Part shown: positions 10,452 through 38,200 of the stretch, one piece after another
How the letters are laid out: each line of letters starts with the position of its first letter
Position numbering within the stretch: position 1 is the stretch's first letter
Assembly: GCA_001464505.1 (NCBI GenBank)
Contig: LNEH01000134.1
Span: 1 to 42,192, forward strand
Reading direction: 5' to 3'
Length of the DNA: 42,192 bases
Origin: Verrucomicrobia bacterium Ga0077533
Lineage (GTDB): Bacteria > Verrucomicrobiota > Verrucomicrobiia > Opitutales > Opitutaceae
The notes under the pieces: model-generated
What the model was told of the DNA's origin: nothing
What the model saw: only the letters and a program-made list of their open reading frames with translations
Database searches by the model: none
Made by a program: the position numbers and the translations under genes

Positions 10452-12812
10452 TCAGAACAACGGCTGGTTGTTCTTCGGATCGTTGAGCAGCGTCTCGAAC
10501 CGCGGGTCGCCGTGGAGCGTGCTGTAGCCGCGCTTCCATTCGTGGACGTTCACGAAGGCGGTGGCCGGGGTGCGCAACAGCCGCGCGAACTCCGCGAGTG
10601 CTTTCTCCTTCTCGCCCGTCATGTCGTAGGTGTTGGCCCGAAAGGCGGCGTAGCTGACCCCGTCGAGGGCATCCAGCGACTCGGGCATCAGCTCCACGCT
10701 CCGCTCCGCGCAGCGCAGGGCCTCCGCCTTGTTGCCAAGGATCACCTCCATGCCCGCGAGAAAGGCCCAGAGGCGGACGCTCTTGGGCTCCTGCACGAGG
10801 CGCGCACGCAATTCAGCCGGGTAGTCGCCCAGCCGGACCTGGGCCCCCGCCTTGTCGCCGAGGGCGTAATAGCTGAGAGCGGCACCATAGGCCTGCTCGT
10901 AGTGCGGCACCCCGTCCTCCTCGTAGTAGGGCTGAACCTTGTCCAGCCGGATGACCTCGGCATAGTCGCCGACCGTCCCGGCCCAGTTCTTCCGCAATTC
11001 GATGCATTCCGGTGAATTCAATTGTTCCGGCTTCAAGGATGCAAAAAAAACATCGCCTTCACGGGTCGAACCGCTGGCCAGAAAATGGCCGTAAGCCAGA
11101 TTGAAAGCCGCCGGCAGGTAGCCCGGCAGCAGCGTGATGATCCGCCGCTGTGTCGCCAGGGCCTCGTCCCAGCGCCGGGCGGCCCGCAGCGTGGCCAGCA
11201 GATTGCGGAGATAATTGATGTTGGCTGGATCGAGCTCGCTGGCCCGGCGCGCATTGGCCAGCGACTGGGCCCAACGACCCTGCCGGCGCTGGATCAGCGC
11301 GAGGGAATTGAACACGACCGGGGAGTTGGGCTGCAGTTTTGCGCGCTTTTCATACTGTTCGGCCGCCCGCACATAGTCGCGGAAGCCATAATAATAATAG
11401 GTGCCGAGGCTCGTGATGACATCGGGGTCATCCGGGGCCAACTGCGCCGCGCGGTCGATGGCCCCCTTGGCGCGGGCGAGCAGGGCATCCATGTCCGGTT
11501 CGCCGAGAAACGTCCCATGGGCATAAACCACCGCAAGCTCACCCCATGCGGCGGCAAAGGCGGGATCCAGCGCCACGGCCGCCGACAGGAGCTCGGCCCG
11601 GCGCTGGCGGGTGGCCGGGTTGCTACTCTCGCGGTTAAAGATTTCACGCGCCTGCAGGAATTTGTCGTAGGCGGCCGGGTTCTCTGTCGGCTTGCGGGCG
11701 ATCAGGACTTTCTCCTCGGGCGACAACGCCATCTTCAGGGCTCCCGCAATCTGCCGCGACAGCTCAGCCTGAATGGTGAAGACGTCCGTGAGCTCGCGAT
11801 CATAGGACGCGGCCCAGATGTGCTCGTCGGTCGCCGCGTGGATCAGCTGGCCGGTGACGCGGACCTTGTTGCCCGAGCGGCGGACGCTGCCCTCAAGGAT
11901 GTAGGTGACCCCGAGCTCCTGGGCGATCTGCCGCATGGGTTTCGACGTCGTGCGGTAGGGCATCACCGAGGTGCGGGACACGACGCGCATTTCGCGGATG
12001 AGCGCGAGGTTGGTGAGGATGTCCTCGTGCATGCCGTCCGCGAAGAACGCGCTGTCTTTTTCCTCACTCATGTTGGTGAATGGCAGGACGGCGATGGACT
12101 TGTCCGCCACGCGTGGCGGAGTGGAAAGTGAGGGTGAAAGTGAAGGTGGTTTGGTTGCGGTGGGTGTCGCGGCGGGCGGCGCGGGCTGGCGCAGGGCCAC
12201 GATGCCCACCCCCACCGCGAGGAGCACGGCGGCAGCCACACCCCACATCCAGCCGGGGAGGCCCTTCTTCTGTAGGGCGGGATCGCCTGATCCCGCCGTG
12301 GTCCGTTGAGGCGGGGTCGGGAGACCCCGCCCTACAGATTTAGCCGGTGCTTCGAGCAACCGTTGCACCTGCTCCACAAATTGCGGCGTGGGCAATGCGC
12401 CGGGCAGGCGGGTCCACTGCACGCGCATGAACTCCGGCGGCACGACCGCGCTGGATTCCTTCGTGTCGTCAATCACGACGGGCGCGAGGAAAGGCACGCC
12501 CTCGGCGAGCAAGTGCGTCTGCTCGACGGCGAGTTTCCATTCGAGCCGGAAGTAGCCTTTGCTCCGCTCCTGCGTGTGCGCGGAAATGATCGGGATGAAC
12601 AGCGCGCAGGCGTCGATCTGTTTTCGAATCTTGGCATCCCACGAATCACCACCGCGCAGCTCGTTCTCGTCGAACCAGACCTCCAGGCCCGCGCTGCGCA
12701 GCGCCTCGGCGACGCGCCGGGCGGCGTCCGTGTCCTCACGGGCGTAACTCAGGAAGACTGCGCCGGGGGTGGAGGCGGTGGAGGCGGCTATTGACAGGCC
12801 CACAGTTGCCAC
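10452..12812 (-). CDS. TIR-domain / TolB-like / TPR membrane protein
   Basis: 786 residues from a GTG at 12812. Residues 17-150 are a TIR domain (FLSYARED; LEVWFDENELRGGDSWDAKI; Glu91 in FRLEWKLAVE is the likely NADase glutamate). A linker at about 159-181 is encoded by a palindromic repeat. A membrane segment spans about 188-207 and a Pro-rich linker follows. Residues about 238-385 form the TolB-like region typical of adenylate-cyclase-type regulators (SIAVLPFTNMSEEKDSAFFADGMHED…LEGSVRRSG). TPR repeats fill 390-760. This architecture is frequent in Opitutaceae and relatives. With TIR facing the cytoplasm and TPRs outside, it could sense envelope ligands; whether it is a defence NADase or signalling scaffold is not known. 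No obvious operon partner. Confidence 0.85.
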   Translation of the reverse strand: MATVGLSIAASTASTPGAVFLSYAREDTDAARRVAEALRSAGLEVWFDENELRGGDSWDAKIRKQIDACALFIPIISAHTQERSKGYFRLEWKLAVEQTHLLAEGVPFLAPVVIDDTKESSAVVPPEFMRVQWTRLPGALPTPQFVEQVQRLLEAPAKSVGRGLPTPPQRTTAGSGDPALQKKGLPGWMWGVAAAVLLAVGVGIVALRQPAPPAATPTATKPPSLSPSLSTPPRVADKSIAVLPFTNMSEEKDSAFFADGMHEDILTNLALIREMRVVSRTSVMPYRTTSKPMRQIAQELGVTYILEGSVRRSGNKVRVTGQLIHAATDEHIWAASYDRELTDVFTIQAELSRQIAGALKMALSPEEKVLIARKPTENPAAYDKFLQAREIFNRESSNPATRQRRAELLSAAVALDPAFAAAWGELAVVYAHGTFLGEPDMDALLARAKGAIDRAAQLAPDDPDVITSLGTYYYYGFRDYVRAAEQYEKRAKLQPNSPVVFNSLALIQRRQGRWAQSLANARRASELDPANINYLRNLLATLRAARRWDEALATQRRIITLLPGYLPAAFNLAYGHFLASGSTREGDVFFASLKPEQLNSPECIELRKNWAGTVGDYAEVIRLDKVQPYYEEDGVPHYEQAYGAALSYYALGDKAGAQVRLGDYPAELRARLVQEPKSVRLWAFLAGMEVILGNKAEALRCAERSVELMPESLDALDGVSYAAFRANTYDMTGEKEKALAEFARLLRTPATAFVNVHEWKRGYSTLHGDPRFETLLNDPKNNQPLF
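12271..12336. repeat. Palindromic repeat, family A copy 2, in frame inside the TIR gene
   Basis: 66 bp (22 codons) with 27-base arms (TGTAGGGCGGGATCGCCTGA… and its inverse ending CCCCGCCCTACA) matching at about 22 positions. It lies inside the coding sequence and is read through without stop, giving the linker SVGRGLPTPPQRTTAGSGDP between the TIR domain and the membrane segment. It belongs to the same family as 9192-9271, which is intergenic. Confidence 0.85.
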
Positions 12813-12870
12813 GGGCGCAAGTCGCTGGCCAGACGAATCTAGCTCGGAAACACCGCGGGAAACGGCCCGG

Positions 12871-13056
12871 TTACAAGTCGCCGGCCTGTGGGCGCAGGAT
12901 GATTTCCTCCACCACGGTGCGGCGGCTGAGGCGGTAGACGTTGAGGATGGCCCGGGCGATGTCCTCGGCGGGCATCATCTTCTCACCGGTGAAGCCGGAA
13001 TTCGCCCAGGAGGGCGTCCACACTGCGCCGGGATGGACGCAGCAGACGCGCACGCC
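12871..13056 (-). pseudogene. 3' fragment of the sepiapterin-reductase-like SDR gene
   Basis: The minus strand encodes GVRVCCVHPGAVWTPSW…RTVVEEIILRPQ…GDL to a stop at 12871. About 54 of 59 residues equal the C-terminus of the intact SDR at 22959-23669, and the DNA is equally close. The N-terminal three quarters, including the cofactor-binding and catalytic parts, is absent, so it cannot be functional. An 11-bp direct repeat, CCGGTTACAAG, flanks it at 12867-12877 and 13055-13065. The remaining 13066-13177 up to the glycosyltransferase start shows no gene. Confidence 0.85.
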
Positions 13057-13177
13057 GGTTACAAGCCGGCTCTGGCCACGATCCCTTGCCTGCCGGCGGA
13101 TCCGCCCGTTCCTGAACATATTGTCAGGGGGTGAGGTTTGCCGGGGCAACCAGAGGACGACGACCCTGTCTGCCATC

Positions 13178-14527
13178 ATGACAATGTCCGACACCGCCCT
13201 CAATTCGTCCAGCCCGCTGCCACGCATCGGCATGGTGTCCACCCACGGCTATGTCGCCGCCGAGCCCCCGCTGGGGAAGGCCGACACCGGCGGCCAGGTC
13301 GTCTATGTGCTCGAGCTGGCCAAGAAGCTCGCCCAACTCGGCTTCGAGGTCGACATCTGGACCCGGCGTTTTGAGGACCAGCCCGAGATGGACGTCGTCA
13401 ACGACCGCGTCCGCGTCCTCCGCGTCCCGTGCGGCGGACCCAACTTCCTCGACAAGGAATACCTCGTCCGCCACCTCGGCGAATGGTCCGAGAATGCCCT
13501 GCGTTTCATCAAGCGGCACCGGCTCAGATATCAGTTCCTCAACAGTCACTACTGGGACGCCGGTTTTGCCACGCAGCGGCTCGCCGAGGCGCTCGACGTG
13601 CCCCACGTCCACACGCCCCATTCCCTCGGCCTCTGGAAAAAGCAACTGATGGAAAAGGATTTCCCGGACGACGCCGCGAAATTCGAAGCCAAATACAACT
13701 TCACCCAGCGCATCAACGAGGAGACCCTCCTCTACCGCAACTGCGAGGAGGTCATCGCCACCACCCCGCTGCAGGTGGACATGATCGTGTCGGACTACGG
13801 CGCCCCCGCCGAAAACGTCCACATGATCCCGCCGGGCTACGACGACAACCGCTTCTTCCCCGTCAGCGCCGCCTCGCGCAACGCCATCCGGCAGCGCCTC
13901 GGCTGCGAGGGCAAGGTCGTCCTCGCCATCGGCCGCCTCGCCCGCAACAAGGGCTATGACCTCCTCGTCAACGCCTTCTCCGTCGTGGCGACCCGCATCC
14001 CCGACGCCGTCCTCCACCTCGCCGTCGGCGGCACCTCGCTCAACGCCAACGAGCAGCAGATCCTCGACGAGCTCAAGGCCCAGGCCGCCGCGCTCGGCCT
14101 CGCGGAGCGCATCAAGTTCTCCGGCTTCGTCGCCGACGCCGACCTCGCCGACCACTACCGCGCGGCCGACGTCTTCGTGCTGAGCAGCCGCTATGAGCCC
14201 TTCGGCATGACCGCCATCGAGGCCATGGCCTGCGGCACGCCCACCGTCATCACCACGCACGGCGGCCTGTTCCGCGCCGTCACCTTCGGCCGCCACGCCC
14301 TCTATGCCGATTCCTTCGACAAGGAGGATCTGGGCATCTCCATCGTGAAAATCATTCGGCACCCGCGGCTGTCGAACCGCCTCGGCCGCATGGGCGCGCA
14401 CAAGGCCCGCAGCCTCTTCACCTGGACCGGCATCGCCCAGCAGCTTACCAGCCTCATCGAGGAACGCGCCACCGCCCTCGCCTTCACCGACAACGAGTGG
14501 GACGAACCCTGGAACGACGGGGACTGA
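13178..14527 (+). CDS. GT4 glycosyltransferase, mannosylfructose-/sucrose-phosphate synthase type
   Basis: 449 residues from the ATG at 13178 (a second ATG at 13184 is possible). The N-terminal domain begins RIGMVSTHGYVAAEPPLGKA with the glycine loop DTGGQVVYVLELAKKL; the C-terminal domain has VLAIGRLARNKGYDLL and the GT4 EX7E motif EPFGMTAIEAMACGTP (Glu340/Glu348). The HSLGLWKK and MIPPGYDDNRFFP segments are those of mannosylfructose-phosphate and sucrose-phosphate synthases. These transfer a sugar from a nucleotide sugar (GDP-mannose or UDP-glucose) to fructose-6-phosphate. Which sugar is used cannot be read from sequence. The matching phosphatase is encoded two genes downstream, so a disaccharide compatible solute is the probable product. 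Confidence 0.85.
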   Translation: MTMSDTALNSSSPLPRIGMVSTHGYVAAEPPLGKADTGGQVVYVLELAKKLAQLGFEVDIWTRRFEDQPEMDVVNDRVRVLRVPCGGPNFLDKEYLVRHLGEWSENALRFIKRHRLRYQFLNSHYWDAGFATQRLAEALDVPHVHTPHSLGLWKKQLMEKDFPDDAAKFEAKYNFTQRINEETLLYRNCEEVIATTPLQVDMIVSDYGAPAENVHMIPPGYDDNRFFPVSAASRNAIRQRLGCEGKVVLAIGRLARNKGYDLLVNAFSVVATRIPDAVLHLAVGGTSLNANEQQILDELKAQAAALGLAERIKFSGFVADADLADHYRAADVFVLSSRYEPFGMTAIEAMACGTPTVITTHGGLFRAVTFGRHALYADSFDKEDLGISIVKIIRHPRLSNRLGRMGAHKARSLFTWTGIAQQLTSLIEERATALAFTDNEWDEPWNDGD

Positions 14528-14542
14528 CCAAACCGTCTGATC

Positions 14543-14644
14543 AACCGCGAAGAACGCGAAGTTGCGCGAAGCCAAACCTTCGGAATCACCCCCCCGATTT
14601 CAATCGCCCTCCTTCCTTCGCGTTTCTTCGCGCCCTTCGCGGTT
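14543..14644. repeat. Palindromic repeat, family D
   Basis: AACCGCGAAGAACGCGAAGT… at the left and …CGCGCCCTTCGCGGTT at the right form 29-base arms matching at about 24 positions, with a 44-base loop. It fills most of the 157-bp gap between the glycosyltransferase and the universal stress protein. The composition differs from the other families in the window. Confidence 0.75.
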
Positions 14645-14684
14645 CCAAAAATCTTAATCCTGCCACCCGTCAGCCACCTTCCTC

Positions 14685-15161
14685 ATGAGAACTTCCTCCG
14701 CTGAAAAAACCACCCACGCGGTCATGGGCCGCGTCAAGACCTCCTACCCCCGTCTCCAGCACCTGCTGGTGCCGCTGGATTTCTCCGGCAAGTCCCGCCA
14801 GGCGCTGCGCTACGCGGTGCCGCTCGCCCAGAAATTTGCCGCGAAAATCCACCTCGTCCATGTGCTGCGGCCCGTGGGCAAGGCGGCGCCGGCTGAGCTG
14901 GCCCACCTCAAGCACGAGGCCATCAAGCGTCTCGGCGAGATGTCCGCTGAGTTGCTGCCTCCGCGACTGCGTGCCGGCAACGCCGTGCTCGTGGGCCGGC
15001 CCGCCGATCAGATCCTGCAGCTGGCGGGGAAGAACAACATCGACCTGATTGTGCTCACCACCAAGGGCCGCTCCGGCCTCGCCCGCGTGCTGGTCGGCAG
15101 CACGGCCGAGCACATCATGCGCCACGCTCCCTGCCCGGTCATGTCCATCCGGCGCCATTGA
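14685..15161 (+). CDS. Universal stress protein (UspA family)
   Basis: 158 residues, one Usp domain. It starts after a 25-residue N-terminal extension: HLLVPLDFSGKSRQALRYAVPLA is the usual beta1-alpha1, IHLVHVL is beta2, and the ATP-loop region TTKGRSGLARVLVGSTAEHIMRHAPCPVMSI is close to the G-2x-G-9x-G(S/T) motif. The first glycine of that motif is a threonine here, so nucleotide binding is probable rather than certain. It sits between the disaccharide-phosphate synthase and phosphatase genes, and the latter begins 2 bp after its stop, so it belongs to that operon and is likely part of an osmotic or general stress response. Confidence 0.9.
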   Translation: MRTSSAEKTTHAVMGRVKTSYPRLQHLLVPLDFSGKSRQALRYAVPLAQKFAAKIHLVHVLRPVGKAAPAELAHLKHEAIKRLGEMSAELLPPRLRAGNAVLVGRPADQILQLAGKNNIDLIVLTTKGRSGLARVLVGSTAEHIMRHAPCPVMSIRRH

Positions 15162-15163
15162 CC

Positions 15164-17269
15164 ATGAGCCCCGCCCCCGATCCGCAGCCCGTCCGCCTCT
15201 TCAGCACCGACCTCGACGGCACGCTCCTCGGCAACCCCGAGGCCACCCAGCGCTTCAAGGCCGCGTGGACCGCCCTCTCCCCGGAGGCGCGGCCGCTGCT
15301 CGTTTACAACACCGGGCGCCTGGTGGACGACCTGCGCCGCTTCGTGGACGACGGCACGCTGCCGCCCGCCGACTTCTACATCGGCGGCGTCGGCACGCAG
15401 GTCTTCGACGTCCGGGCCGGCCGGATGCTGGCCGAGCTGAATGACCACCTGGCCGACGGCTGGGATCTGGCCCGGGTGCGTGAGATCACCGCCCGCTTCC
15501 CCGGCGTGCGTCCGCAACCGGATGAGTTTCAGCACGAGTTCAAGTCGAGCTGGTTCCTCGACCGCGCCTCCCCCGCCGCCATCCGCGAGCTCAAGCGCCA
15601 GCTCACCGACACCGGACTCAAGGTGAAGCTCGTCTACTCCAGCGGCCGCGACCTCGACGTGCTGCCGCGCAACGCCACCAAGGGCGGCGCGCTCTCCTGG
15701 CTGTGCGCCCGCTTGGGCGTGCCCCTCGACACTGTGCTGGTGGCCGGCGACACCGGCAACGACGCCAGCATGTTCCGCCTGCCCGGGGTCCGCGGCATCA
15801 TCGTCGAAAACGCCCTGCCCGAACTCTTCGAGGCCACCGTCGACGTGCCCACCTACAGCTCGCGCCAAATCCTCGCCGATGGCGTGCTCGACGGTCTTTG
15901 CCACTACGGGGTCGTCTGTGTGCTGCCCACCAAGGAGAAAACCCGCGTCAAGCGCGCCGACATGGCGCCGGGCTTCCAGATGCTCTTCACCGGCACCAAG
16001 CTCGGCTCGCTCACCGACAAGGAGAAGGCCTTCCTCGCCACCGCCTACGAGCAGGCCCTCGTCGCGCTCAAGAAGAACATCACGCCGCTCGGCTTCTCCG
16101 CCTGCTCCCTCGCCGACAACACCGTCACCGGCACCGACGCCAACTACCGCAGCGTGTGGGCCCGCGACGGCGCGATCACGGTCTGGAGCACACTCCAGGT
16201 CGACGACGAGGAGGTGCGCGCCGCCCAGATCGCGACCCTCGAGACCCTGCTCAACGCCACGACCCCCAACGGCCAGGTCCCGGCCAACGTCCGGATTGAC
16301 GACGGCGTGCCGGACTACTCCGGCGTCGGCAGCATCGCCTCCATCGACAGCGGCCTGTGGGTCATCATCGCCCTCTACAACCACGCCCACCGCACCGGCG
16401 ACCACTCCCTGCTCTACCGCCACGCCGACCGCCTCCAGACCATCATGAACTGGCTGAGCGCGCAGGATTCCAACAACGACGGCCTGCTCGAAATCCCCGA
16501 GGGCGGCGATTGGACGGATCTCTTCGGCCGCAGCTACAACATCCTCTATGACGAGGTCCTCTGGTTTCGCGCCAACGTCTGCTACGGCCGCATCCTCGAG
16601 CTCATGGGCCAGTTCGACCGCGCCGCCGACTACCTGCGCTGGTCGCAGAAGATCCGCGGCCGTATCCTGGATGTTTTCTGGCCGACCACCGCGCCCGACG
16701 CCAACGGCCCCCGGGCCAATCGCTTCGCCGACCGCCAGAGCGGGCTCGGCGACACGCAGTATCTTTTGGCCGAGATCACGCCCTTCGCCTTCAACTGGCG
16801 CTGCGACACCTACGGCAACATCCTCGCGTTCCTGATGAACGTGCTCGACGTCGACCGCGCGCGCACCGCCTTCCGTTTCATGTGGGGCGTCGGCGTCAAC
16901 CAGCCCTGGCCTGTCGCCAACCTCTACCCCGTCGTGCAGGCCGGCGATCCCGACTGGCGCGCCTACTACACCGTCAACCTGCTCAACCTCCCGCACCACT
17001 ACCACAACGGCGGCCTCTGGCCCTTCATCGGCGGCATGTGGGTGCGCTTCATCCACCGGCTCGGTTTCCACGAGGTCGCCTGCCGCGAACTCGTCCGCCT
17101 CGCCGAGCTGAACAAGCTCGGCCGCAACCACGAGTGGGAGTTCAACGAGTGGGCGCACGGCCAGACCGGCCGGCCCATGGGCAAGGCGTTCCAGGCGTGG
17201 TCCGCCGCATCCTTCCTCCGCGCCTGCCACGAGGTCGGGGCCGACCCCAAGAGCCTGGCCGACACCTGA
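15164..17269 (+). CDS. HAD sugar-phosphate phosphatase fused to GH100-like invertase domain
   Basis: 701 residues from the ATG at 15164. Residues 1 to about 255 are a HAD-IIB phosphatase of the sucrose-/mannosylfructose-phosphate type: STDLDGTLLG (Asp16/Asp18), YSSGRDLDVLPRNATKGGAL and GDTGNDASMF (about 195-204). Residues about 270-701 are an (alpha/alpha)6-barrel hydrolase like GH100 neutral/alkaline invertases: WARDGAITVW, IDSGLWVIIALYNHA with the presumed catalytic Asp395, DSNNDGLLEIPEGGDWTDLF and YHNGGLWPFIGGMW. One polypeptide would thus carry a phosphatase that finishes the disaccharide and a hydrolase able to split it (or a related glucoside). Substrates are inferred. It follows the Usp gene with a 2-bp gap. 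Confidence 0.85.
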   Translation: MSPAPDPQPVRLFSTDLDGTLLGNPEATQRFKAAWTALSPEARPLLVYNTGRLVDDLRRFVDDGTLPPADFYIGGVGTQVFDVRAGRMLAELNDHLADGWDLARVREITARFPGVRPQPDEFQHEFKSSWFLDRASPAAIRELKRQLTDTGLKVKLVYSSGRDLDVLPRNATKGGALSWLCARLGVPLDTVLVAGDTGNDASMFRLPGVRGIIVENALPELFEATVDVPTYSSRQILADGVLDGLCHYGVVCVLPTKEKTRVKRADMAPGFQMLFTGTKLGSLTDKEKAFLATAYEQALVALKKNITPLGFSACSLADNTVTGTDANYRSVWARDGAITVWSTLQVDDEEVRAAQIATLETLLNATTPNGQVPANVRIDDGVPDYSGVGSIASIDSGLWVIIALYNHAHRTGDHSLLYRHADRLQTIMNWLSAQDSNNDGLLEIPEGGDWTDLFGRSYNILYDEVLWFRANVCYGRILELMGQFDRAADYLRWSQKIRGRILDVFWPTTAPDANGPRANRFADRQSGLGDTQYLLAEITPFAFNWRCDTYGNILAFLMNVLDVDRARTAFRFMWGVGVNQPWPVANLYPVVQAGDPDWRAYYTVNLLNLPHHYHNGGLWPFIGGMWVRFIHRLGFHEVACRELVRLAELNKLGRNHEWEFNEWAHGQTGRPMGKAFQAWSAASFLRACHEVGADPKSLADT

Positions 17270-17322
17270 GCCGGACCGGCTTGCCTGCGCGCTGCACGAT
17301 GCGTTGAGTCCCTCTCCCGTTC

Positions 17323-18741
17323 ATGCTCAACCGCCTTCCCTTCAGCTATGTCAAGTGGCTGTCCGTCTTTCAGCCGCAGCGCAAGGATCCCGACCTCCGT
17401 CCGCTGGCCCTGGGCTTCCTCTGCCTGATCGTGGTCGGCGGAGTCGCCTTGCTCCTGCCGTGGGCGCATCAGCCGGGCCGGACCCTGGCGCTGATCGACG
17501 CCTTTTTTCTCTCCACCTCGGCGGTGTGCGTCACGGGCCTGGCTTCGGTCAACATCGCCGGGATGCTGAACGGCACGGGCCATGCCATCCTGCTGGTGCT
17601 GGTCCAGCTCGGCGGCCTCGGCATCGTGACCGCCAGTCTCGCCCTGGTGATGCTCGGCGGCGAACGCCTCAGCCTCGCCAACGAGAGCGCGGTGGCGGCC
17701 ACCATCGGCCGGTTGCAGCGCGCGACCCCGGCGGAGCTTTTCCGTTACAGTTGCCTGCTGGTGGCGCTGTGCGAGGCCGCCGGCGCCAGCAGCCTCTACT
17801 GGCGGCTCCAGGCGCTCAACCCCGACGCCGATGCGCTCATGCTCGTGTGGCAGGCGGTCTTTCACTCCGTCAGCGGCTTTTGCAACGCGGGCTTCTCCAT
17901 CTTTCCCGAAGGCCTCGTGCGCTGGCGGGGCGACGCGGTCCTGCTCGGCATCATTGACCTCCTGGTCATCGCCGGCGGCATCGGTCTGCTTTCGCTCATC
18001 AATCTCCGCTATTATTATTTCTGGCGGCGCGATCCGCGCCGCCGCGGCCGCCTGGCGCTCCAGACCAGGCTCGCCGCCGGCGTCTCCCTGCTGCTGATCG
18101 CCGCCGGCACGGTCGTCACCCTGCTCTTCGAGTGGAACCACACCCTGGCCGACGAACCCTTCGCCCACAAAATTTCCTGGGCCGCCTTCCACTCCGTCAT
18201 GACCCGGACGGCCGGCTTCAATGTGGTGGATCCCGGCCAGATGCATCCGGCCACCCTGCTGTTCAGCATGATCCTGATGTTCATCGGCGGCTCCCCCGGC
18301 TCCATCGCCGGCGGCATCAAGACCGTCACGGTGGCCGTGCTGTTCTGCACCGCCCGGGCCGCCCTGCTCCGCCAGGAGAACGTCGAGATCCTCGGCCGCC
18401 GCATCAGTCCCCGCCTCTCGGGCATAGCGCTGATGCTGGCCCTGCTCGCGTCAACGGTCGTGATGCTGGGCATCGGCAGCCTGATGCTCACGGAACTCGA
18501 CGAGCCGGCTGCGGCCGGCCCGGGCGGCTGGCTGGGGCTTGCCTTCGAAGCCGTCTCGGCGTTCGGCACCGTCGGCCTCAGCACCGGCGTCACGGGCCTG
18601 CTCACCGACAGCGGCAAGCTCGTCATCATGGCGCTCATGTTCGCCGGGCGCGTCGGCCCGCTGGTGCTCGCGGTTTATCTGGCCAGACCGGTCCACCCCT
18701 GGCATATCCGCTCTCCGGAAGAGGAAGTATCCCTCGGCTGA
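17323..18741 (+). CDS. ktrB: KtrB/TrkH-type potassium channel subunit
   Basis: 472 residues, highly hydrophobic with four membrane-pore-membrane units. The four selectivity-filter segments are visible: SAVCVTGLASVN (about 65-75), HSVSGFCNAGFS (about 184-195), HSVMTRTAGFNVVD (about 290-300) and SAFGTVGLSTG (about 408-418), each with the conserved filter glycine. The length fits KtrB better than the longer TrkH. It forms the K+ (Na+-dependent) pore in the inner membrane and needs the cytosolic RCK subunit, encoded 5 bp downstream. Placed after compatible-solute genes, it fits an osmotic-upshift response. Confidence 0.92.
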   Translation: MLNRLPFSYVKWLSVFQPQRKDPDLRPLALGFLCLIVVGGVALLLPWAHQPGRTLALIDAFFLSTSAVCVTGLASVNIAGMLNGTGHAILLVLVQLGGLGIVTASLALVMLGGERLSLANESAVAATIGRLQRATPAELFRYSCLLVALCEAAGASSLYWRLQALNPDADALMLVWQAVFHSVSGFCNAGFSIFPEGLVRWRGDAVLLGIIDLLVIAGGIGLLSLINLRYYYFWRRDPRRRGRLALQTRLAAGVSLLLIAAGTVVTLLFEWNHTLADEPFAHKISWAAFHSVMTRTAGFNVVDPGQMHPATLLFSMILMFIGGSPGSIAGGIKTVTVAVLFCTARAALLRQENVEILGRRISPRLSGIALMLALLASTVVMLGIGSLMLTELDEPAAAGPGGWLGLAFEAVSAFGTVGLSTGVTGLLTDSGKLVIMALMFAGRVGPLVLAVYLARPVHPWHIRSPEEEVSLG

Positions 18742-18746
18742 TTTTT

Positions 18747-19421: not shown

Positions 19422-19426
19422 TATGG

Positions 19427-23677: not shown

Positions 23678-23761
23678 CACCACGAAATACACCAAATACA
23701 CGAAAGGAATGGTCCGGAAAAGCATGGTTTGTTTTTCGTGTCTTTCGTGTGTTTCGTGGTG
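23678..23761. repeat. Palindromic repeat, family E (between folE2 and the SDR gene)
   Basis: Left arm CACCACGAAATACACCAAAT… and right arm …CGTGTGTTTCGTGGTG are imperfect inverted copies (about 24 of 28 positions) of a 'CCACGAAAnACACGAAA' phrase, 84 bp in all. It occupies almost the entire 102-bp gap between two genes of the pterin cluster. It is A+T-richer than the surroundings. Confidence 0.8.
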
Positions 23762-24799: not shown

Positions 24800-24870
24800 G
24801 TGGGAGGGGCTTTACGCCCCGACGGGATGACGGCCGCACCGGCAGAGTCGGGGCATAAAGCCCCTCCCAC
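24800..24870. repeat. Palindromic repeat, family B (between ptpS and folE2)
   Basis: GTGGGAGGGGCTTTACGCCC… and its inverse …AAAGCCCCTCCCAC form 24-base arms with a single mismatch around a 23-base loop. It sits in the 145-bp gap between the PTPS and FolE2 genes. No other copy is in the window. Confidence 0.85.
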
Positions 24871-25412: not shown

Positions 25413-25490
25413 AGGTGGAGCGCGGTGACCCCAACGCGCTACGGCCGGTTAGCGCCGAAACCAACGCGTTGGGGTCAACGCGTTCCACCT
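25413..25490. repeat. Palindromic repeat, family C (upstream of ptpS)
   Basis: AGGTGGAGCGCGGTGACCCC… and the inverse ending …AACGCGTTCCACCT form 26-base arms matching at 24 positions, 78 bp in all. It lies in the 190-bp gap between the divergent PTPS and MBL-hydrolase genes, so it may overlap one of their promoters. Confidence 0.85.
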
Positions 25491-30009: not shown

Positions 30010-30033
30010 GGTCCCTCGGCCTGGCGGGCCCGT

Positions 30034-30615: not shown

Positions 30616-30619
30616 GGCG

Positions 30620-31099: not shown

Positions 31100-31398
31100 G
31101 GCTTAAGCAAGGCCTGGACCCGCGGGTCCAAGTCCACCAGGTAGGTGGCCACGATGGCTTCGCGATCAGCCTGCACCCGGGCCCGCGCCATGGCGCTGCC
31201 GGTATAGCCAGCGGCACTCAACGCCAGCACCGCGGCGAGCGACCAGACGGCGGCGTGGGCCCGCAGGTAGGCCGGCCAGGTCGCCCCGGCCTGGCGTTCG
31301 ATGCGCTGCCACACACGGTTACGGAAGCCCGGATCGGCGGGCGGGGTCACCCGCCAGCTGCGCAGACTTTCGGCAAGGGAATCAGGGGTGGTGTTCAT
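31096..31398 (-). CDS. Small membrane anti-sigma factor (CnrY-like position)
   Basis: 100 residues. A cytoplasmic N-terminal part (LAESLRSWRVTPPADPGFRNRVWQRIERQ) is followed by one membrane helix (about 50-70, AAVWSLAAVLALSAAGYTGS) and a short periplasmic tail. Sequence similarity to named anti-sigma factors is weak, but position, size and topology equal CnrY, which sequesters CnrH. First gene of the operon; the predicted promoter at 31413-31442 is so close that the mRNA leader would be only a few bases. No Shine-Dalgarno is evident, so translation may be nearly leaderless. Confidence 0.7.
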   Translation of the reverse strand: MNTTPDSLAESLRSWRVTPPADPGFRNRVWQRIERQAGATWPAYLRAHAAVWSLAAVLALSAAGYTGSAMARARVQADREAIVATYLVDLDPRVQALLKP

Positions 31399-31412
31399 GG
31401 GGATTACGGAAG

Positions 31413-31442
31413 ATTATACACCCGGAACAGCGAAATCCCTCA
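31413..31442 (-). promoter_or_regulatory. Predicted ECF-sigma promoter of the cnrYXH-like operon
   Basis: On the minus strand: TGAGGGATTTC (31442-31432), ten bases, then GTGTATAAT (31421-31413). The same pair of boxes with identical ten-base spacing occurs in the opposite direction at 31467-31496 for the efflux operon. Taken as -35 and -10 elements, TGAGGG and GTGTAT are 15 bp apart, a normal ECF spacing. That the adjacent sigma factor reads it is inference. Confidence 0.7.
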
Positions 31443-31466
31443 AAATCGTCGGACGAATCATATTTC

Positions 31467-31496
31467 TGAGGGATTTCCAGTCCGGCGGTGTATGAC
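31467..31496 (+). promoter_or_regulatory. Predicted ECF-sigma promoter of the metal-efflux operon
   Basis: TGAGGGATTTC (31467-31477), ten bases, then GTGTATGAC (31488-31496), a mirror image of the boxes upstream of the cnrYXH-like genes. It points toward the Cys-rich protein and CusCBA-like genes, leaving a leader of about 230 bases before 31735. The two copies form a 13-of-14 inverted repeat around a 24-base centre. Confidence 0.7.
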
Positions 31497-31549
31497 TGGA
31501 TGACAGTCGCACAACCCGTGCGGCACCCGAGCTAAAACTCATCCCCGCC

Positions 31550-31639
31550 ATGAAAGCCACCAAACTCCCGCTCGCCGCCGCGATCTTCACCGGCCTCGCC
31601 GGCCCCGGCCCCGATTGCCGGACCCGCATCCTTTCCTGA
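31550..31639 (+). CDS. Possible 29-residue leader peptide or truncated exported protein
   Basis: An ATG at 31550 opens a short frame, MKATKLPLAAAIFTGLAGPG and then DCRTRILS, which looks like a signal peptide cut off soon after its hydrophobic core. It lies just after the predicted ECF promoter, in the long leader of the efflux operon. It may be a remnant of a deleted gene or a small peptide; there is no homology to judge by. The rest of 31399-31734 holds the twin promoters and a weak stem around 31662-31690, nothing else recognised. Confidence 0.3.
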   Translation: MKATKLPLAAAIFTGLAGPGPDCRTRILS

Positions 31640-31734
31640 CTCCCGCAGACAGATACACCGGTCCAGCCGCGGCCTTTCCGTCGGGGCTGGACTGTCAATG
31701 ATACCTTGCTACTTCCTCCTCATCCCACCCATCC

Positions 31735-32166
31735 ATGAATAAATCCTCCCTCCCCCACGCCCTGCTGTTTTCCGCCACCGTCCTGCTGGCCGGTCCCCTT
31801 GGCTTCGCCGCCGAAGGGCACAACCACTCCGCCTCCGCCAAAGCCGCCCCCGCCGAAAAAGCCGGCCAGCTGATCCCCGTGACCGAAAAGGACGCCGTCT
31901 GGGCCGCGAAAGCGCGCCAGAACTATCCCCTCGATGTCTGCCTCGTTTCGGACGAGAAGCTCGGCAGCATGGGCAAATCGCCTGAGTATATCTACCGCGT
32001 CGACGGCAAAGCCGACCGCTTCGTGGTGTTCTGCTGCGACGGCTGCGAGGGGGATTTCCTGCATGAGCCGGCGAAACACCTCGCGAAACTCGCTGCGGCG
32101 GCGAAATCCGCGCCCGCCCCGAAAGCCGATGCGCCCAAGGGCCACGGCGAACACAAGTCCAACTGA
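31735..32166 (+). CDS. Exported Cys-rich metal-binding protein of the efflux operon
   Basis: 143 residues with a signal peptide (about 1-26). A His-containing stretch (EGHNHS) follows, then a compact domain: YPLDVCLVSDEKLGSMG (Cys69) and VVFCCDGCEGDF (Cys100, Cys101, Cys104), and a His-rich tail (GHGEHKSN). The C…CC-x2-C layout resembles TRASH/YHS-like metal-binding domains. It is probably a periplasmic metal carrier or scavenger feeding the pump. First gene after the predicted ECF promoter; the outer-membrane channel gene starts 5 bp after it. Confidence 0.7.
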   Translation: MNKSSLPHALLFSATVLLAGPLGFAAEGHNHSASAKAAPAEKAGQLIPVTEKDAVWAAKARQNYPLDVCLVSDEKLGSMGKSPEYIYRVDGKADRFVVFCCDGCEGDFLHEPAKHLAKLAAAAKSAPAPKADAPKGHGEHKSN

Positions 32167-32171
32167 CCCCC

Positions 32172-33422
32172 GTGCGCCTGCGTCCCCTCCTCCTCGCGCT
32201 CGGGAGCGCACTGGCTTGCTCCACGCTGTTTTCGGGTGCCGAGCCGCCTGAGGCGCATGCCGAGTTTATCCGCATTGTCACCGGGGCTCCGGCGCTTTCC
32301 GCCGCCTCAAGCCGGGCCGCGGCCGCCCGCGAGCGCATCGACTCGGCGGGCCGGCTCGCCGATCCGGAGGTGGAGGGCATGACGTCGCGCCTCAACGGCC
32401 CGCTGGGCGAGCGGCGCACGATGTATGGACTCAACGTCCGCCAGCCGCTCCCGAAACGCGGCGAGCGCGCCGCGGACCGCGAGCGTGCCCACGCCGGTGC
32501 CGCGATGGCCAATGCCGATTATGCCGTGATGGCCGGAGAGATGGCCGCCGACACCGCGATGGCGCTCGCCGAAGCCGAGGGCGCGCAACAGCGCATCCAT
32601 ATTTTGGAAACGCAGCTCGGCCGGCTCGACGCCGTGCTGCGCAGCATCGAGGTCCGACTCGCCGCCGGCCCCACCGGTCGCATCGCCGACCGGCTCACCG
32701 TCCAGACCCGCATCGCGTCCATGCAGTTCATGGTCGAGGAAGAGCGCCGGATGGCCGCCGATGCGCTCGCCGAGGCGCGCGGCCGCCTGGGGCTCAAACC
32801 CGACGCGCCGCTCCCCGCGTTTGCCGCGCCGACCGTCGCTGACATCAGCGTGGACGACTCCGCCGCACTCCAACTTGCCGCGGCCCGCTCCGCCGAGGCC
32901 ACGGCGATGGCCAGGATGGCTCGCGCCTCGGCGAATCCCATGACCGCCGTCGGGCTCAGCCTCGAAAATGAAAAAACCGCCATGGGCGACGAGAACACCG
33001 TGGGCCTCGCCTTCATGTCGGAGATTCCCTGGCGCAGCCGCCGCTACGCGCGCGCCGAAGTGCGCGCGGCCGAAGCCGAACGCGCCGCCGCGCAGACGGA
33101 CGGCACCGCCGCCCGCTACCGGATCTCCGCCGCCTTGACGCGCGTCGATCGCGCGCAACGTCTCGCCGAAACCGCGCGCCGGCTCAGCGCCGAAACGCGC
33201 GCCCGCCTCGACGCTGAATACGACGCGATGGTGCGCTCGGCCGGCGTCGGTGGATCCGGCGAATCAACGGTGTTGCAAATCGTCGAACTGCTCGAAAAAG
33301 CCACCGACACCGAGCTGCAGATCATCCAAGCCGACACCGCCGTGCGCAGCGCGCGCGCCGAACTCTGGCGCTATCTGCCGGCCGGCCAATTTTCCGCCAC
33401 CACCCAACAGGAACTCCCATGA
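32172..33422 (+). CDS. TolC-family outer-membrane efflux channel (CusC/CzcC-like)
   Basis: 416 residues from a GTG at 32172, with a signal peptide ending near FSGAEPPEA. Two long helical, Ala/Arg/Glu-rich halves (about 40-210 and 225-400) have the repeated structure of outer-membrane factors; SAASSRAAAARERIDSAGRL and the DPEVEGMTSRLNGP strand region are typical of CzcC/CusC-type channels. It would form the trimeric outer-membrane duct for the RND pump encoded downstream. The next gene overlaps its stop by an ATGA junction. Confidence 0.85.
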   Translation: MRLRPLLLALGSALACSTLFSGAEPPEAHAEFIRIVTGAPALSAASSRAAAARERIDSAGRLADPEVEGMTSRLNGPLGERRTMYGLNVRQPLPKRGERAADRERAHAGAAMANADYAVMAGEMAADTAMALAEAEGAQQRIHILETQLGRLDAVLRSIEVRLAAGPTGRIADRLTVQTRIASMQFMVEEERRMAADALAEARGRLGLKPDAPLPAFAAPTVADISVDDSAALQLAAARSAEATAMARMARASANPMTAVGLSLENEKTAMGDENTVGLAFMSEIPWRSRRYARAEVRAAEAERAAAQTDGTAARYRISAALTRVDRAQRLAETARRLSAETRARLDAEYDAMVRSAGVGGSGESTVLQIVELLEKATDTELQIIQADTAVRSARAELWRYLPAGQFSATTQQELP

Positions 33423-33829
33423 CCCGCAGCATTTTCATCTTCCTCGGCACGTTTGCCGCCGGCGCGCTCATCGCCCTCATCGTGCGCGCGGCGGCGTATA
33501 ATCCCCACCCCGGCCACGCGGGTCATCCCGCCAGCGGCGGCGACTACGCCGCGATGGTTTCCAACCCGCTCGTGCCCGCCAGCGCACCGCCAGCGACCGC
33601 GGCCGATCCGCACGCGAATCACAGCCCCGCCGCCGCGACTCCCGCCGCCGGCCAGCCGGTGAACACCGTCTGCGCGATCTGCGGCATGGACGTCGATCCG
33701 AACCTTCCGACCGCGGAGTATCAGGGCCGGACCATCGGCTTCGGCTGCAGGATGTGCCCGCCGAAATTCAAGGCCGATCCCGACCGCTACGGGCCGTCCT
33801 ACCTGAAAAACGAAGTCATCAAGCGCTGA
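33419..33829 (+). CDS. Membrane-anchored YHS/TRASH-like metal-binding protein
   Basis: 136 residues. An N-terminal membrane helix (IFIFLGTFAAGALIALIVRA) is followed by a His/Pro/Ala-rich linker (HPGHAGH, HANH), then VCAICGMDVDPNLP (Cys85, Cys88) and TIGFGCRMCPPKFKADPDRY (Cys110, Cys113). Two CxxC pairs in this spacing resemble the YHS/TRASH metal-binding fold. It is tightly coupled to the TolC-like gene (4-bp overlap) and 6 bp from the adaptor gene. A role in handing metal to the pump is inferred. Confidence 0.7.
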   Translation: MTRSIFIFLGTFAAGALIALIVRAAAYNPHPGHAGHPASGGDYAAMVSNPLVPASAPPATAADPHANHSPAAATPAAGQPVNTVCAICGMDVDPNLPTAEYQGRTIGFGCRMCPPKFKADPDRYGPSYLKNEVIKR

Positions 33830-33835
33830 GCCGCC

Positions 33836-35155
33836 ATGCGTTCCCCTCCCGCCCTTCTCATCGCCGCGGCCGGTCTGGCCGCTGGCGCGCTCGTCATCGC
33901 GCTGCTGCCGTCACGCGCGCTTTTTTCCGTCCCGGACGCCCGCGTTGACCCGGCCAAATCGGCGGCCGGCGAGCGCTGGGCCTGCCCCATGATGGACTTC
34001 ATCGGCACCCAGCCCGGCAACTGCCCGGTCTGCGGCATGCAGATGACCCGGGTCACCGCCGGCGAACTCGCGCGCGAGCAACAGCGCCGGATGGGTGTGC
34101 AGCTTGCGACGGTCACTGAAGGCCCGGCCAGCGTGACGGTCAGGGCCTACGGCGCGGCGGACTACGATCACCGCTACACCTCCGTGGTGATCCCCCGCGT
34201 GGCGGGCCGGATCGTGAAGCGCTACATGGCGACCTATGGTTGCTGCGAGAACCTCGCGGCCGGCGCGCCTGTCGTGGACCTTTACAGCCCGGAGGCTTTC
34301 ACGGCGCAGGGCGAGCTGGCGGCCGCGGTGAAGCTGGGCGATGAGCCGACCATCCGGGCCCTCACGGAGCGCTTTGCGCGCTGGAACCTCTCCGCCATCG
34401 CCGCCGCCATTCTGGGCGGCGAGCCCCCGCGCGACATCGTCACCATCCATACCCCCTTTGCCGGCCAGGTGCTGCTCCGCGACTTTGAAAAGGTCAACGA
34501 GAGCCTGGAACTCGGCCGGGAAGTCATGGCCGACACGCCGTTGCTCCGGCTCGTCGACCCGGACCGGCTGACGCTGGTCGTGCATGTGCCCGAGGGCCGG
34601 GCGCGGTTCCTGCGCGAAGGGCAGCGGGTGGTGTTGGAAAGCGACGATCACGGTCCGTTGCCTGAACTCGAAGCCACCGTCGCGCGGCTGGGCCAGGAGA
34701 TCGATCCTGAGATCCGCTCGCGCGAAGTGCGCATCTACATCAGCGGGGCGCGGTCCGTGCTCCAACCGGGTTCCCTCGTGGCCGCGCAGATCAAGGGCGT
34801 GCTCGCGTCCGACTTCCGCCCCGCCGATCCGCAGGACCCCGATACCTGGGGCAAGTTCGTGCTCATTCCGAAAACCGCGGTGCTCTCCACCGGCGTGCGC
34901 AACGTGGCGTGGCGCGTAGCCGAGCGGCAGCGCGATGGCCGCGTCCGCTTCGAGCTCGCGCCGCTTGCGCTCGGGCCGCGCCTCGAGAACGAGTCGGGCA
35001 ACGACATGTATGTCGTGCGCGCCGGCCTGAAACCCGGCGACGAAGTCGCGACGCAAGGCGTGTTCCTCATCGACAGCCAGGCGCAGCTCGCGGGCACGTC
35101 GAGTTTACGCTTTCCCGTGGGCGCCGTCGCGCCCGCCGCGGCGCACCAGCACTGA
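33836..35155 (+). CDS. cusB: RND periplasmic adaptor (CusB-like) with heavy-metal-binding domain
   Basis: 439 residues. After an N-terminal membrane/lipid-free anchor (about 5-22) comes a small metal-binding domain, WACPMMDFIGTQPGNCPVCG and MQMT (about 43-68), the HMBD seen in CusB-type adaptors. The barrel and lipoyl-like parts follow (SVVIPRVAGRIVKRYMATYG, VDLYSPEAFTAQGEL, IHTPFAGQVLL, TPLLRLVDPDRLTLVVHVPE), and the membrane-proximal domain near the end (GLKPGDEVATQGVFLIDSQA). It links the RND pump to the outer-membrane channel. Cu+/Ag+ is the usual cargo for this subgroup; Ni/Co/Zn is possible given the CnrYXH-like regulation. Confidence 0.85.
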   Translation: MRSPPALLIAAAGLAAGALVIALLPSRALFSVPDARVDPAKSAAGERWACPMMDFIGTQPGNCPVCGMQMTRVTAGELAREQQRRMGVQLATVTEGPASVTVRAYGAADYDHRYTSVVIPRVAGRIVKRYMATYGCCENLAAGAPVVDLYSPEAFTAQGELAAAVKLGDEPTIRALTERFARWNLSAIAAAILGGEPPRDIVTIHTPFAGQVLLRDFEKVNESLELGREVMADTPLLRLVDPDRLTLVVHVPEGRARFLREGQRVVLESDDHGPLPELEATVARLGQEIDPEIRSREVRIYISGARSVLQPGSLVAAQIKGVLASDFRPADPQDPDTWGKFVLIPKTAVLSTGVRNVAWRVAERQRDGRVRFELAPLALGPRLENESGNDMYVVRAGLKPGDEVATQGVFLIDSQAQLAGTSSLRFPVGAVAPAAAHQH

Positions 35156-35243
35156 CCCAGCAGCCGCGAGCGTGAACGGGCGGATTTGGCCGACTCACGC
35201 TTGATCACACTACTCGCTCAGGTTCGCAGCACAATTTCCCTCA

Positions 35244-38200
35244 ATGCTCTCCTTTGTCATCCGTAACACCTTTCTCACGCTCACCGCGGCGCTGGGGCTG
35301 GCGGTTGCCGGCTTCTGGGCGTGGCGGAATGTCCCCGTCGATGCGATCCCCGACCTGAGCGACAACCAGGTGATCGTCTGGGCCGAATGGCCGGGCAAGA
35401 GCCCGCAGGACATGGACCAGCAGGTCACTTCGCGGCTCGCGCGTGAACTCCAGGGCCTGCCGGGGGTGCAGACCGTGCGCGGCATGTCGCTCTATGGGGC
35501 GAGCTACATCTACGTCATTTTCGACGAAAACCGCGATCTCTACGATTGCCGCACCCGCGTGCTTGAGCGGCTCTCCCAGTTGCAAGGCATCCTGCCGGCG
35601 GGCGTGAATCCACGGCTCGGTCCCGATGCGACCGCGATGGGCCAGGTCTATGCGTTCACCTTGCAGGGGCCGCGCGACATCGAGAAAAAGCGTTTCATTT
35701 TGGATCAGCTGGTGGTGCCGGCGTTGCGCGCCGTGCGCGACGTGGCGGAAGTGGCGCCGGCCGGCGGCGTCGTGCGCGAATACCAGATCGACGTCGATCC
35801 CACGCGGCTTGAGGAACAGGGCCTCACGCTCGATATGCTGATGATGGCCGTGCAACAGGCGGGCCGCGATGTCGGTGCGATGAGCGTGGAGCAGACCGGC
35901 GTCGAAACCATGATTCGCGGCGTGGGTTTCATCCGCTCGGTCGCGGACGTGGAGAACATCGTCATCCGCGGCAACCGGCTCAAAGGCGCGGGCCTCCGGC
36001 TCGGCGACATCGCCGACGTGCGGCTCGGCGGACAGTTCCGCCAGGGCTTGCTCGCCGACGGTTATCAGGAACACGTCGGCGCCATCATCGGCATGCGCGT
36101 CCAAGGGGATCCGAAGACCGTCATCAATGCGGTGAAGCAACGCCTCGTGGATCTCGGGCCGGCACTCGCGCGCGAGGAGTTAAGCGTCGTGCCGTTCTAC
36201 GACCGTTCCCATCTCATCCGCGAGACGACCGCCACCGTCACCGCCACGCTTATCGAGGCGGTTATCACGACCATCATCGTTGTCGTGCTCTTCCTGTTGC
36301 ATGTGCGCGCCAGTCTGGCCGTCGCTGTGAGCCTGCCGCTCGGCATGCTGTTCACTTTTCTGGTCATGCACCTGTTCGGAGTCGGCGCGAACATCATGAG
36401 CCTTGCCGGCATCGCCATCGCCATCGGCGTGATGGTGGATTTTGGGATCATCATGACCGAAAACATCACGCAGCACCTCGTGGACCTGCAGGAAAAATGC
36501 CGGCGCGAGGGCCGCGCCATGCCGACTTCGCCGTTCAATCCCGAAATCACCGACACGGTGGTGCATGCCGCGCAGGAAGTCGCGCGGCCGCTGCTCACCT
36601 CGGCGGCGACCACCGTCATCGGCTTTCTGCCGATTTTCGCCCTGAGCGACCAGGCGGGCCGGTTGTTTCAACCGCTCGCCCTGACCAAATCACTCGCCAT
36701 CAGCGGCGCCGTGCTCTTCGGCACGCTGCTTGTGCCCGTGCTCTGCCGGCTGCTCCTGCCCCCGTGGCACGTGCGCAAGCCGGTTTTGCTCGCGCTCGCG
36801 GGCATCGCGGCGGGTGTCGCCTTTGGCTGGTTCGTGCGCGACGGCTGGGCGCTGCCGATGGACTACGGCCGCTGGACGCTCACCATTCCCGGCTGGCTGT
36901 TTGCGCCGCTGTTCGCCACTCTAGCCGCCTCCGCGGTCTGGCGGATCGGCCGCGAACGCCTCGTCAACTACGAGGAAAATCCCATGAGCCACGCGATTCA
37001 CGTCGCCTACGAGTGGGCTTACGAGCGCATCCAGCGCCACCGCGTGATCTTCACCGTCGCCATCGCCACGATGGCCTTGGGCGGTTATCTGCTCGGCGCG
37101 GGCTGGCAGACACTGAGCTGGCCGCTGCGCCAGGTGATCGCCGCCGCCGGCGGCGACCTGGCGCACACGACGCTTGATCGCACGATGACGCGGGCTTTCC
37201 CCGGCGCGGGCTCAAGCTTTCTCCCGCCGCTCGACGAAGGCAGCCTGCTCTTCATGCCGTCGATTCCCGCCACCGGCGGGCTCGGCGAGACGCAGCGCAT
37301 CATGCTCGCGCAAAACCGGCTGATCGAATCCATCCCCGAAGTCGCGAGCCTGATGGGCAAGATGGGCCGCGCCGAGACGGCGCTTGATCCCGCCCCCATC
37401 GGCATGATCGAGACCGTCGTGCTGCTGAAGCCCTATGCGGACTGGCCGATGCACGAGATCACGCGCGCCGACGGCCGGATCGAGCATCGCCCGCGCACGC
37501 TCAATGAAGTCCGCGCGGCGCTCGCCGCGATCACGGAGATGCCCGGCGTCGCGCCGAGCTGGCTCCAGCCGATCGAGACCCGCATCGTCATGCTCTCGAC
37601 CGGCATCCGCAGCCTGATCGCGCTCCAGATTCTCGGCGACGACGGCGAGGCGCTGGAACGCTTCGCCGAAAGGGCGGAGAAGATCATCCAGCCGACGCCC
37701 GGGGCGGTGGATGTGCAGATGCAGCGCGAGGGCGGCAAGCCCTACGCGGAGATCCGGCTCGATCCGGCGAAGCTCGCGCGCTTCGGGCTGGGCAACGAGC
37801 AGGTGATGCGCACCGTGGAGACCGCGCTCGGCGGCATGGCCGTGACGTATTCGGTCGAAGGGGCGCTGCGTTATCCGGTCCGCATCCGCTACCTGCGCGA
37901 GCGCCGCGACGATCCCGACGAGCTGCTCCAACTGCAAGTCGCCGCCACCGACGGCCACGGCGCCATCCCGCTGACCAGCCTGCTCGCGATTCCGACGGTC
38001 CATGTGCTGGAGGTAGGGCGCGTTATCCCTAACGCGCCGCTCAGCGCGAACGAAACCGAACGGCGGGTTAAGGATAACCCGCCCTACCCGGAAAACACCG
38101 CCGCGTTTCTCGCGAGGCTCCCCCTCGCCCACCAGCGCAACTTCACGATCCTTTCCCCGCATCGCGCCGAACTCACGGTGCCCGCCGGCGATCCGCTCCC

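Follow-up and report, generated by a model that had tools for sequence, protein, structure and literature searches.

Contig C134 of the draft genome of Verrucomicrobia bacterium Ga0077533 (2.9 Mb, 82.75% complete, 226 contigs) was analysed over its whole stretch of 42,192 nucleotides, referred to below as the window. It contains three strongly palindromic segments, one located between genes and two read through as peptide inside unrelated proteins. The question raised by this locus is whether the two coding segments are ordinary protein sequence or copies of a mobile element that were inserted in frame and, in the latter case, what the element is and how it persists in genes. The features concerned are the following.

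9192..9271, no strand assigned: intergenic REPIN copy with GGGATC-type arms; REP units at about 9193-9218 and 9245-9270 with a spacer between them
12271..12336, no strand assigned: REPIN copy within the reading frame of the TIR/TPR gene; its GTAG...CTAC core of 64 nt spans 12272-12335 and reads SVGRGLPTPPQRTTAGSGDPALQ on the minus strand
38012..38088, no strand assigned: REPIN copy within the reading frame of the CusA-type pump gene; its GTAG...CTAC core of 75 nt spans 38013-38087 and encodes 25 residues on the plus strand
10452..12812, minus strand: gene of a 786-aa TIR/TPR protein, host of the copy at 12271, which lies between the TIR domain and a hydrophobic stretch
35244..39014, plus strand: gene of a 1256-aa CusA/AcrB-type efflux pump, host of the copy at 38012; the insert comprises residues 923-948 approximately
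7803..9170, minus strand: histidine kinase gene, a neighbour adjoining the intergenic copy and outside the element

Palindromic copies in the window

The three copies and their hairpin potential, described in a first-pass annotation of this DNA, were found again at the same positions. Their inverted-repeat arms span 9192-9218/9245-9271 (96% complementary), 12269-12297/12310-12338 (86%), and 38012-38042/38058-38088 (87%), and the folding z-scores are -10.1, -6.7, and -6.3, respectively, with none of 200 shuffles of each copy folding as well. The codon frames of the flanks agree with the location of two copies in frame within unrelated proteins (TIR/TPR and CusA-type) and of the third between genes: the copy at 9192 lies outside the histidine kinase ORF, and no coding frame is common to its two sides. 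The TIR domain encompasses residues 19-139 of the 786-aa protein, and the interval 901-1006 of the pump, which holds the insert, is unaligned to E. coli CusA.

The three copies had been described as one repeat family sharing TGTAGGGCG...CGCCCTACA ends. This description holds in part. The GTAG tag is present at both ends of all three, but the ends of the CusA copy are GGTAGGGCG...CGCCCTACC. The arm cores are of the GTTATCCCTAAC type in the CusA copy and of the GGGATC or GGGGTC type in the other two, and the "one family" is therefore one superfamily with common outer bases and without a common core. The 9-mer tag by itself is weak in the window (12 matches with at most one mismatch, 8.5 expected; 17 of 100 shuffles reach this count). 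No segment of the window reached the gathering score of any Rfam family, and plasmid records showed no match to the cusA region. Further strong inverted repeats, which belong to different families, are found at 14543-14644, 23678-23761, 24800-24870, and 25413-25490.

A dispersed family of paired REP units

Alignment of the window copies with 22 more copies revealed a plan in which GTAGGGCG is followed by an imperfect palindrome, usually with CGCC or GCC at its end, then by a variable spacer, and last by the mirror image of the first part; the arms are of several subtypes. This is the plan of a head-to-head dimer of GTAG REPs, i.e. a REPIN. Degenerate tags (GCAG, GTGG) occur in some of the in-gene copies outside the window. 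With 106 and 93 matches, lone GTAGGGCG is found in the genome less often than the reversed control (124 and 156); single 9-mer or 8-mer tag counts are thus uninformative, and paired tags were used. The pattern GTAGGGCG-N28..58-CGCCCTAC is found at 28 places in the source genome and at none with the reversed-pattern control, so the genome search that had been proposed for further copies uncovered a dispersed paired family. The gap range of the exact pattern fits only the TIR copy among the three of the window; the copies at 9192 and in cusA were found by a covariance model that had been built including them. This model gave at least 130 matches on both strands of the source genome (150 of 7,243 candidates scored), and the matches listed collapse to 74 distinct places, 68 of which were classified after fetching their surroundings. 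The other six are five weak places (C166, C186, C121:19190, C209, and C150) and C59:5916, which is outside the fetched stretches. Three of the 68 (C132, C179, and C102) have almost no sequence on one side. Among the genomes of the family, the exact pair pattern is present in 59 of 120, representing 30 of 49 genera; the reversed-pattern control gave 0-2 matches per genome, with the exception of 11 in G071 (versus 52 pattern pairs there).

RAYT transposase genes

Six genes of the source genome match PF01797. The two that were put to NCBIfam, located on C12 and C156, are REP-associated tyrosine transposases (RAYT, TnpA-REP), and one of them also matches a solved TnpA-REP chain. Of the two arms that flank the C12 gene, one is a single base away from the left arm in the CusA copy, and the opposite one is an exact match to the left arm of the copy in ugp, a core gene described below. 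The C156 gene has, on either side, arms of the type that forms the left half of the copy in nuoG. No such flanking REP arms were found within the 700 bases scanned for the remaining four PF01797 genes, and no RAYT with GGGATC-type flanking arms was found, which may be an effect of the incomplete draft. Since RAYT genes are present and matching REPs flank them, the elements are probably moved by these enzymes. According to the available text of the respective reports, E. coli TnpA-REP cleaves at a CT adjoining the REP and recombines REP DNA in vitro (PMC8266576), and REPIN excision reads were reported for P. fluorescens SBW25 (PMC3116915). By analogy, such activities would allow loss or exchange of an element at a site.

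In-frame copies and the search for broken genes

Using a codon model trained on the long ORFs of the same loci, 240 bases were scored on each side of each copy. At nine of the 68 classified places, in eight genes, both flanks are coding in one frame and the element and flanks are free of stops. The host genes were named by Pfam or solved homologues, with the exception of the PrmC-like protein, named by our own reading of its MTS domain.

Window, 12271, minus strand: TIR/TPR protein (codon model)
Window, 38012, plus strand: CusA-type pump (codon model)
C203:31215: PrmC-like methyltransferase (prmC)
C121:66889: TsaD (tsaD)
C30:2009 and C30:2239: two copies in one gene, TPR-rich protein
C59:1327: UTP-glucose-1-phosphate uridylyltransferase, called ugp
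C155:23729: HrpA (hrpA)
C201:18181: NuoG (nuoG)

A share of 9 in 68 is far under the usual coding share of bacterial genomes, taken as a general figure, and the in-gene copies consequently look like rare survivors. Six places with one common best frame and a stop-free element were excluded, either for stops in a flank or because a flank is missing. Where a long ORF traverses a pair ahead of any domain (e.g. C119:7250, C119:3158, and C151:2317), the pair was left out of the in-gene count because a later start is likely.

The tag is read as Val- or Ala-Gly-Arg in seven of the nine copies and in the next phase, as Cys-Arg-Ala or Gly-Arg-Thr, in the other two (prmC and hrpA). The third phase reads the GTAG tag as a TAG stop, and no read-through is possible. 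The element length is a multiple of three in only five of the nine, so either some copies did not arise by simple and precise in-frame insertion or indels occurred later. The TsaD and HrpA inserts appear as alignment gaps with respect to solved homologues, and those of NuoG and CusA lie outside the stretches aligned to solved homologues. In the model that AlphaFold gave for the PrmC-like protein (mean pLDDT 80.6, from 15 sequences), the REP peptide, residues 126-147, falls in a predicted coil; the preceding helix ends at 125, the following strand begins at 153, and pLDDT is below 50 at residues 127-142.

Each of the 68 places was searched for a frame that would be open if the element were removed; ten of them were inspected and the others were judged by the codon model alone. 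There was no clear case of a gene split by a copy among the ten places inspected. At C157:750 the TAG of the element terminates the upstream ORF, and the start of the next gene lies immediately past it. The ORF at C181:13859 ends on a TGA within the element, yet its C-terminal YfbK domain is complete; as the frame beyond belongs to a DUF386 protein, this element is located between genes. The downstream frame is open at C119:7250 and the upstream side is non-coding. In the other seven, the coding flank is separated from the element by a stop, or a stop is found close by. None of the ten was counted as broken. As a separate observation, the tsaD gene of the source genome (L082, about 2471-2499, G000:C121) is interrupted by a frameshift that lies upstream of the REP pair, with the N-terminal part in frame +1 and the rest in frame +2; this could be a draft error or real.

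Orthologues of cusA and of the TIR gene

The insert of the CusA-type pump is absent in 13 of 13 orthologues of 71-87% identity, and the net gain with respect to the nearest of them is 21 codons (63 nt), as compared with a core of 75 nt. In the named genome collection 36 of the 38 CusA loci covering the site are without the insert, at least seven contigs being common to the set of 13 and the set of 38. The two exceptions have about 40 (L185) and about 10 (L215) extra residues, and scanning of both ORFs for GTAG or GTGG pairs found none. The approximately 40-residue loop insert of L185 includes internal repeats. At the level of gene comparison, these alignments establish an insertion at cusA. 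For the TIR gene, whose linker is variable in all 18 orthologues shown, an insertion is only likely. The nearest orthologue (L153, 70% identity) has a non-palindromic linker that is only three residues shorter, and in G113 the linkers of two neighbouring TIR genes contain REP-like sequence of another kind at this place. The expectation of empty orthologous sites was consequently borne out at cusA, and the TIR gene offered no clean empty site. Taken with the RAYT genes flanked by matching REPs, the empty site in all 13 cusA orthologues supports the earlier proposal that REP-like DNA was inserted in frame as linker sequence. TIR/TPR genes form multi-copy clusters in several genomes of the family (e.g. 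G113:C1, about 836,000-845,000), and their post-TIR linkers are very variable.

REP pairs in the same loops of five core genes

The genes tsaD, nuoG, prmC, hrpA, and ugp were searched in the 120 family genomes and matched in 114, 113, 117, 107, and 112 of them, respectively. The 29 best non-self loci per gene were aligned, giving 145 rows, among which hrpA of L323 is counted although unalignable at the site. Most of the aligned sites are empty. An in-frame REP pair in the same loop, read by eye, was present in 14 of the 145 orthologue rows, a proportion that is not a population frequency since the queries held the insert and carriers of similar inserts were favoured. Each of the five genes has at least one:

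tsaD: G071, G096, G054
nuoG: G037, G027, G116, G096
prmC: G116, G043
hrpA: G027, G071, G116, G096
ugp: G037

Other contents are found as well: the nuoG loop holds other palindromes in G005 and G002 and a single REP in G050, and the tsaD loop of G093 holds one REP arm. An inverted-repeat score assigned blindly reached 14 or more at 11 of 145 sites and in 8 of 1164 control windows taken from other parts of these ORFs (Fisher p = 7e-7), 12 or more at 14 sites and in 16 control windows (p = 7e-7), and 10 or more at 16 sites and in 43 control windows (p = 4e-4); these tests share the bias of the queries. Among the 11 high-scoring sites that of L345 is a non-GTAG element, among the 14 pairs read by eye that of L317 scores only 8, and at least one control window (L325) is itself an in-frame REP pair. 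The ugp loop of L345 contains a AGGTCTCAGG-type repeat and not a GTAG pair. Several hrpA ORFs have palindromes elsewhere in the open frame, located near codon 450 in L325, 700 in L317, 600 in L319 and L315, and 650 in L341; the one in L325 is a near-perfect GTAG pair.

Common origin or independent insertion

The nuoG pairs of the source genome (G000), G037, G027, and G116 have spacer and offset in common, and on this basis the four are orthologous. Genomes G093, G071, G113, and G040 fall among the nuoG carriers in a five-gene tree, yet lack the nuoG pair, and in G096 a pair with other arms and another spacer is found at the identical offset. In tsaD the spacer is common to G000 and G096, the arms are different in G071 and G093, and all four genes have a Phe codon directly before the tag. 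The left arms of the ugp copies of G000 and G037 differ at two stem pairs by paired changes. Such sharing of spacers with patchy presence needs more than insertion alone. The hrpA tags of G000, G027, G071, G116, and G096 start 10, 13, 1, 13, and 0 nt, respectively, after the same codon and are in two phases (a less clear element in G074 has its tag start at 3 nt), and these differing offsets and phases make several of the insertions look independent. The prmC pair of G043 lies upstream of the site used in G000 and G116.

Fourfold sites were compared between shared inserts and the rest of the gene. Over five comparisons, those within nuoG being non-independent, 72 of 79 sites are alike in the inserts versus 725 of 1068 in the rest (p = 3e-6), and with one comparison per gene the values are 43/47 and 369/585 (p = 2e-5). 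The hrpA insert of L317, unaligned to that of the source genome, was left out of the pool. Residue identity ranges from 0.78 to 0.92 in the shared inserts versus 0.78 to 0.86 in the rest and is not higher throughout, although two orthologous nuoG inserts keep 92% of their residues, more than the rest of the protein. The fourfold pattern appears to fit recent arrival, exchange, or constraint at the DNA level more than selection on the peptide. It also upholds the view that the peptides are not ordinary protein segments: the same peptide with unrelated codons was not seen, and the fourfold sites were more alike in all five pairwise comparisons.

Origin of the in-gene copies

The dispersed paired family, the REP-flanked RAYT genes, the nine in-frame positions, the empty cusA site, and the pairs in the same loops of other genomes are, with high probability, explained by REPINs, most likely moved by RAYTs, that survive in genes only where their phase is open and the site is a flexible loop or linker. 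The REPINs, in which GTAG-tagged REP units belonging to several subtypes are paired head to head, would be dispersed by tyrosine transposases (RAYT, TnpA-REP) that the same genome encodes and that act on single-stranded REPIN DNA, leading to its insertion. Selection would then retain the copies that land in genes only if the hairpin is in an open phase within a flexible loop or an interdomain linker, where it would be translated as a Gly/Pro/Arg-rich spacer, the phase reading GTAG as TAG being excluded. We infer from this pattern that the elements are transposed and translated, that the peptide is nearly neutral, and that copies are lost or replaced at a site. A bolder reading, which we consider possible but hold only tentatively, is that core proteins of the Opitutaceae have exchangeable hairpin slots, in which RAYT-mobilised pairs would be gained, swapped for other subtypes, and precisely lost with the frame kept, so that mobile DNA would steadily rewrite the linkers of core enzymes and be maintained at the DNA level, not for the peptide.

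A single ancient insertion per loop, inherited and lost in some lineages, with arms that diverged or were converted by other REPINs and without repeated insertion, is the most serious competitor, but we consider it rather unlikely. It accommodates the spacer and offset common to the four nuoG pairs together with the missing pair in G093, G071, G113, and G040, the other arms of G096 at the same nuoG offset, the Phe codon preceding the tag in the four tsaD genes, and the paired changes in the ugp stem. The varied offsets and two phases of the hrpA tags speak against it, as does the G043 prmC pair upstream of the G000/G116 site. Selection of the inserted hairpin for a function, such as mRNA structure or a useful peptide, seems improbable: the higher fourfold conservation in shared inserts (72/79 and 43/47) agrees with it but equally fits recent arrival or exchange between copies, and most aligned orthologues are without the insert and different subtypes occupy the same loop.

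If the segments were ordinary conserved protein and the palindromes due to chance or codon use, the 92% residue conservation of the orthologous nuoG inserts, above that of the rest of the protein, would find a place; the empty site in 13 of 13 cusA orthologues and in most core-gene rows, the 28 genome pairs versus none in the control, and fourfold sites that agree more often within shared inserts than in the remainder of the gene make this very improbable. Least probable of all is an artefact by which repeats were misplaced in genes of the draft. The assembly is fragmented in 226 contigs and its tsaD is frameshifted upstream of the element, but in-frame pairs are found in the same loops of other genomes, including the single-contig G071 (tsaD and hrpA), and the nuoG spacer recurs in four genomes. 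We favour RAYT-moved REPINs that survive in open phase within flexible loops.

Relation to known intragenic palindromes

In-gene palindromes had been thought, in the first-pass annotation, to be known chiefly from Rickettsia. This does not stand: the available text of Di Nocera et al. 2013 (PMC3733652) describes intragenic GTAG and CGTC REPs forming in-frame inserts of 20-30 residues and names Opitutus terrae, also of the Verrucomicrobia, as the genome with the largest number of GTAG REPs in genes; uvrA, DNA ligase, and RNA helicase genes are among the hosts. The elements described there resemble ours in the GTAG tag, the imperfect palindromes, the head-to-head dimers with a variable spacer, the several subtypes per genome, the REP-flanked RAYTs, the in-frame inserts of 20-30 residues, an RNA helicase host, and the phylum. 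As far as that text goes, different REPs at about the same site are reported only for recB of two Xanthomonas species, the sites differing in other genes of that functional category (PMC3733652). The present set differs in the genes and genomes concerned, the empty or differently filled orthologous sites, the shared spacers, and the arms matched to two RAYTs. In-gene GTAG REP pairs are therefore already known as a kind; what is new are these members, the series of orthologues, the pairing of arm types with two RAYTs, and the turnover at shared sites. No report of REP site sharing in Opitutaceae was found in the literature searched, in which subscription journals were covered only in small part and supplements were excluded.

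REPINs as described in the available text of Bertels and Rainey 2011 (PMC3116915) are likewise inverted REP doublets that form hairpins and are thought to be moved by RAYTs. Those of P. fluorescens SBW25 are nearly all extragenic (14 of the 1,067 most abundant 16-mers overlap genes; PMC3116915), whereas here a set is in frame in core genes. From what is accessible of the work on Rickettsia, RPE-4, RPE-6, and RPE-7 are in-frame palindromes in unrelated proteins at solvent-exposed sites, similar to the elements described here, and different RPE groups are found near the same sites of R. japonica orthologues, with hotspot or common origin left open (PMC3767692). In our set, common origin is suggested at some sites by a spacer found in several genomes, and independent insertion at other sites by the variation in offset and phase. 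By their description in the text of PMC3733652 at our disposal, the R. conorii intragenic repeats are CGTC elements without a dedicated transposase, which sets them apart from the GTAG tag and RAYT genes found here.

The Opitutaceae copies would thus constitute a case outside Rickettsia of mobile-type palindromes supplying protein sequence, with the likely transposases encoded in the same genome. Related genomes with filled, differently filled, and empty states of one site make the hotspot or common-origin question raised in Rickettsia testable. The inserts are also natural data on which loops of TsaD, NuoG, HrpA, PrmC, and CusA tolerate about 20 to 25 foreign residues, and a warning to annotators that such linkers are not conserved protein features.
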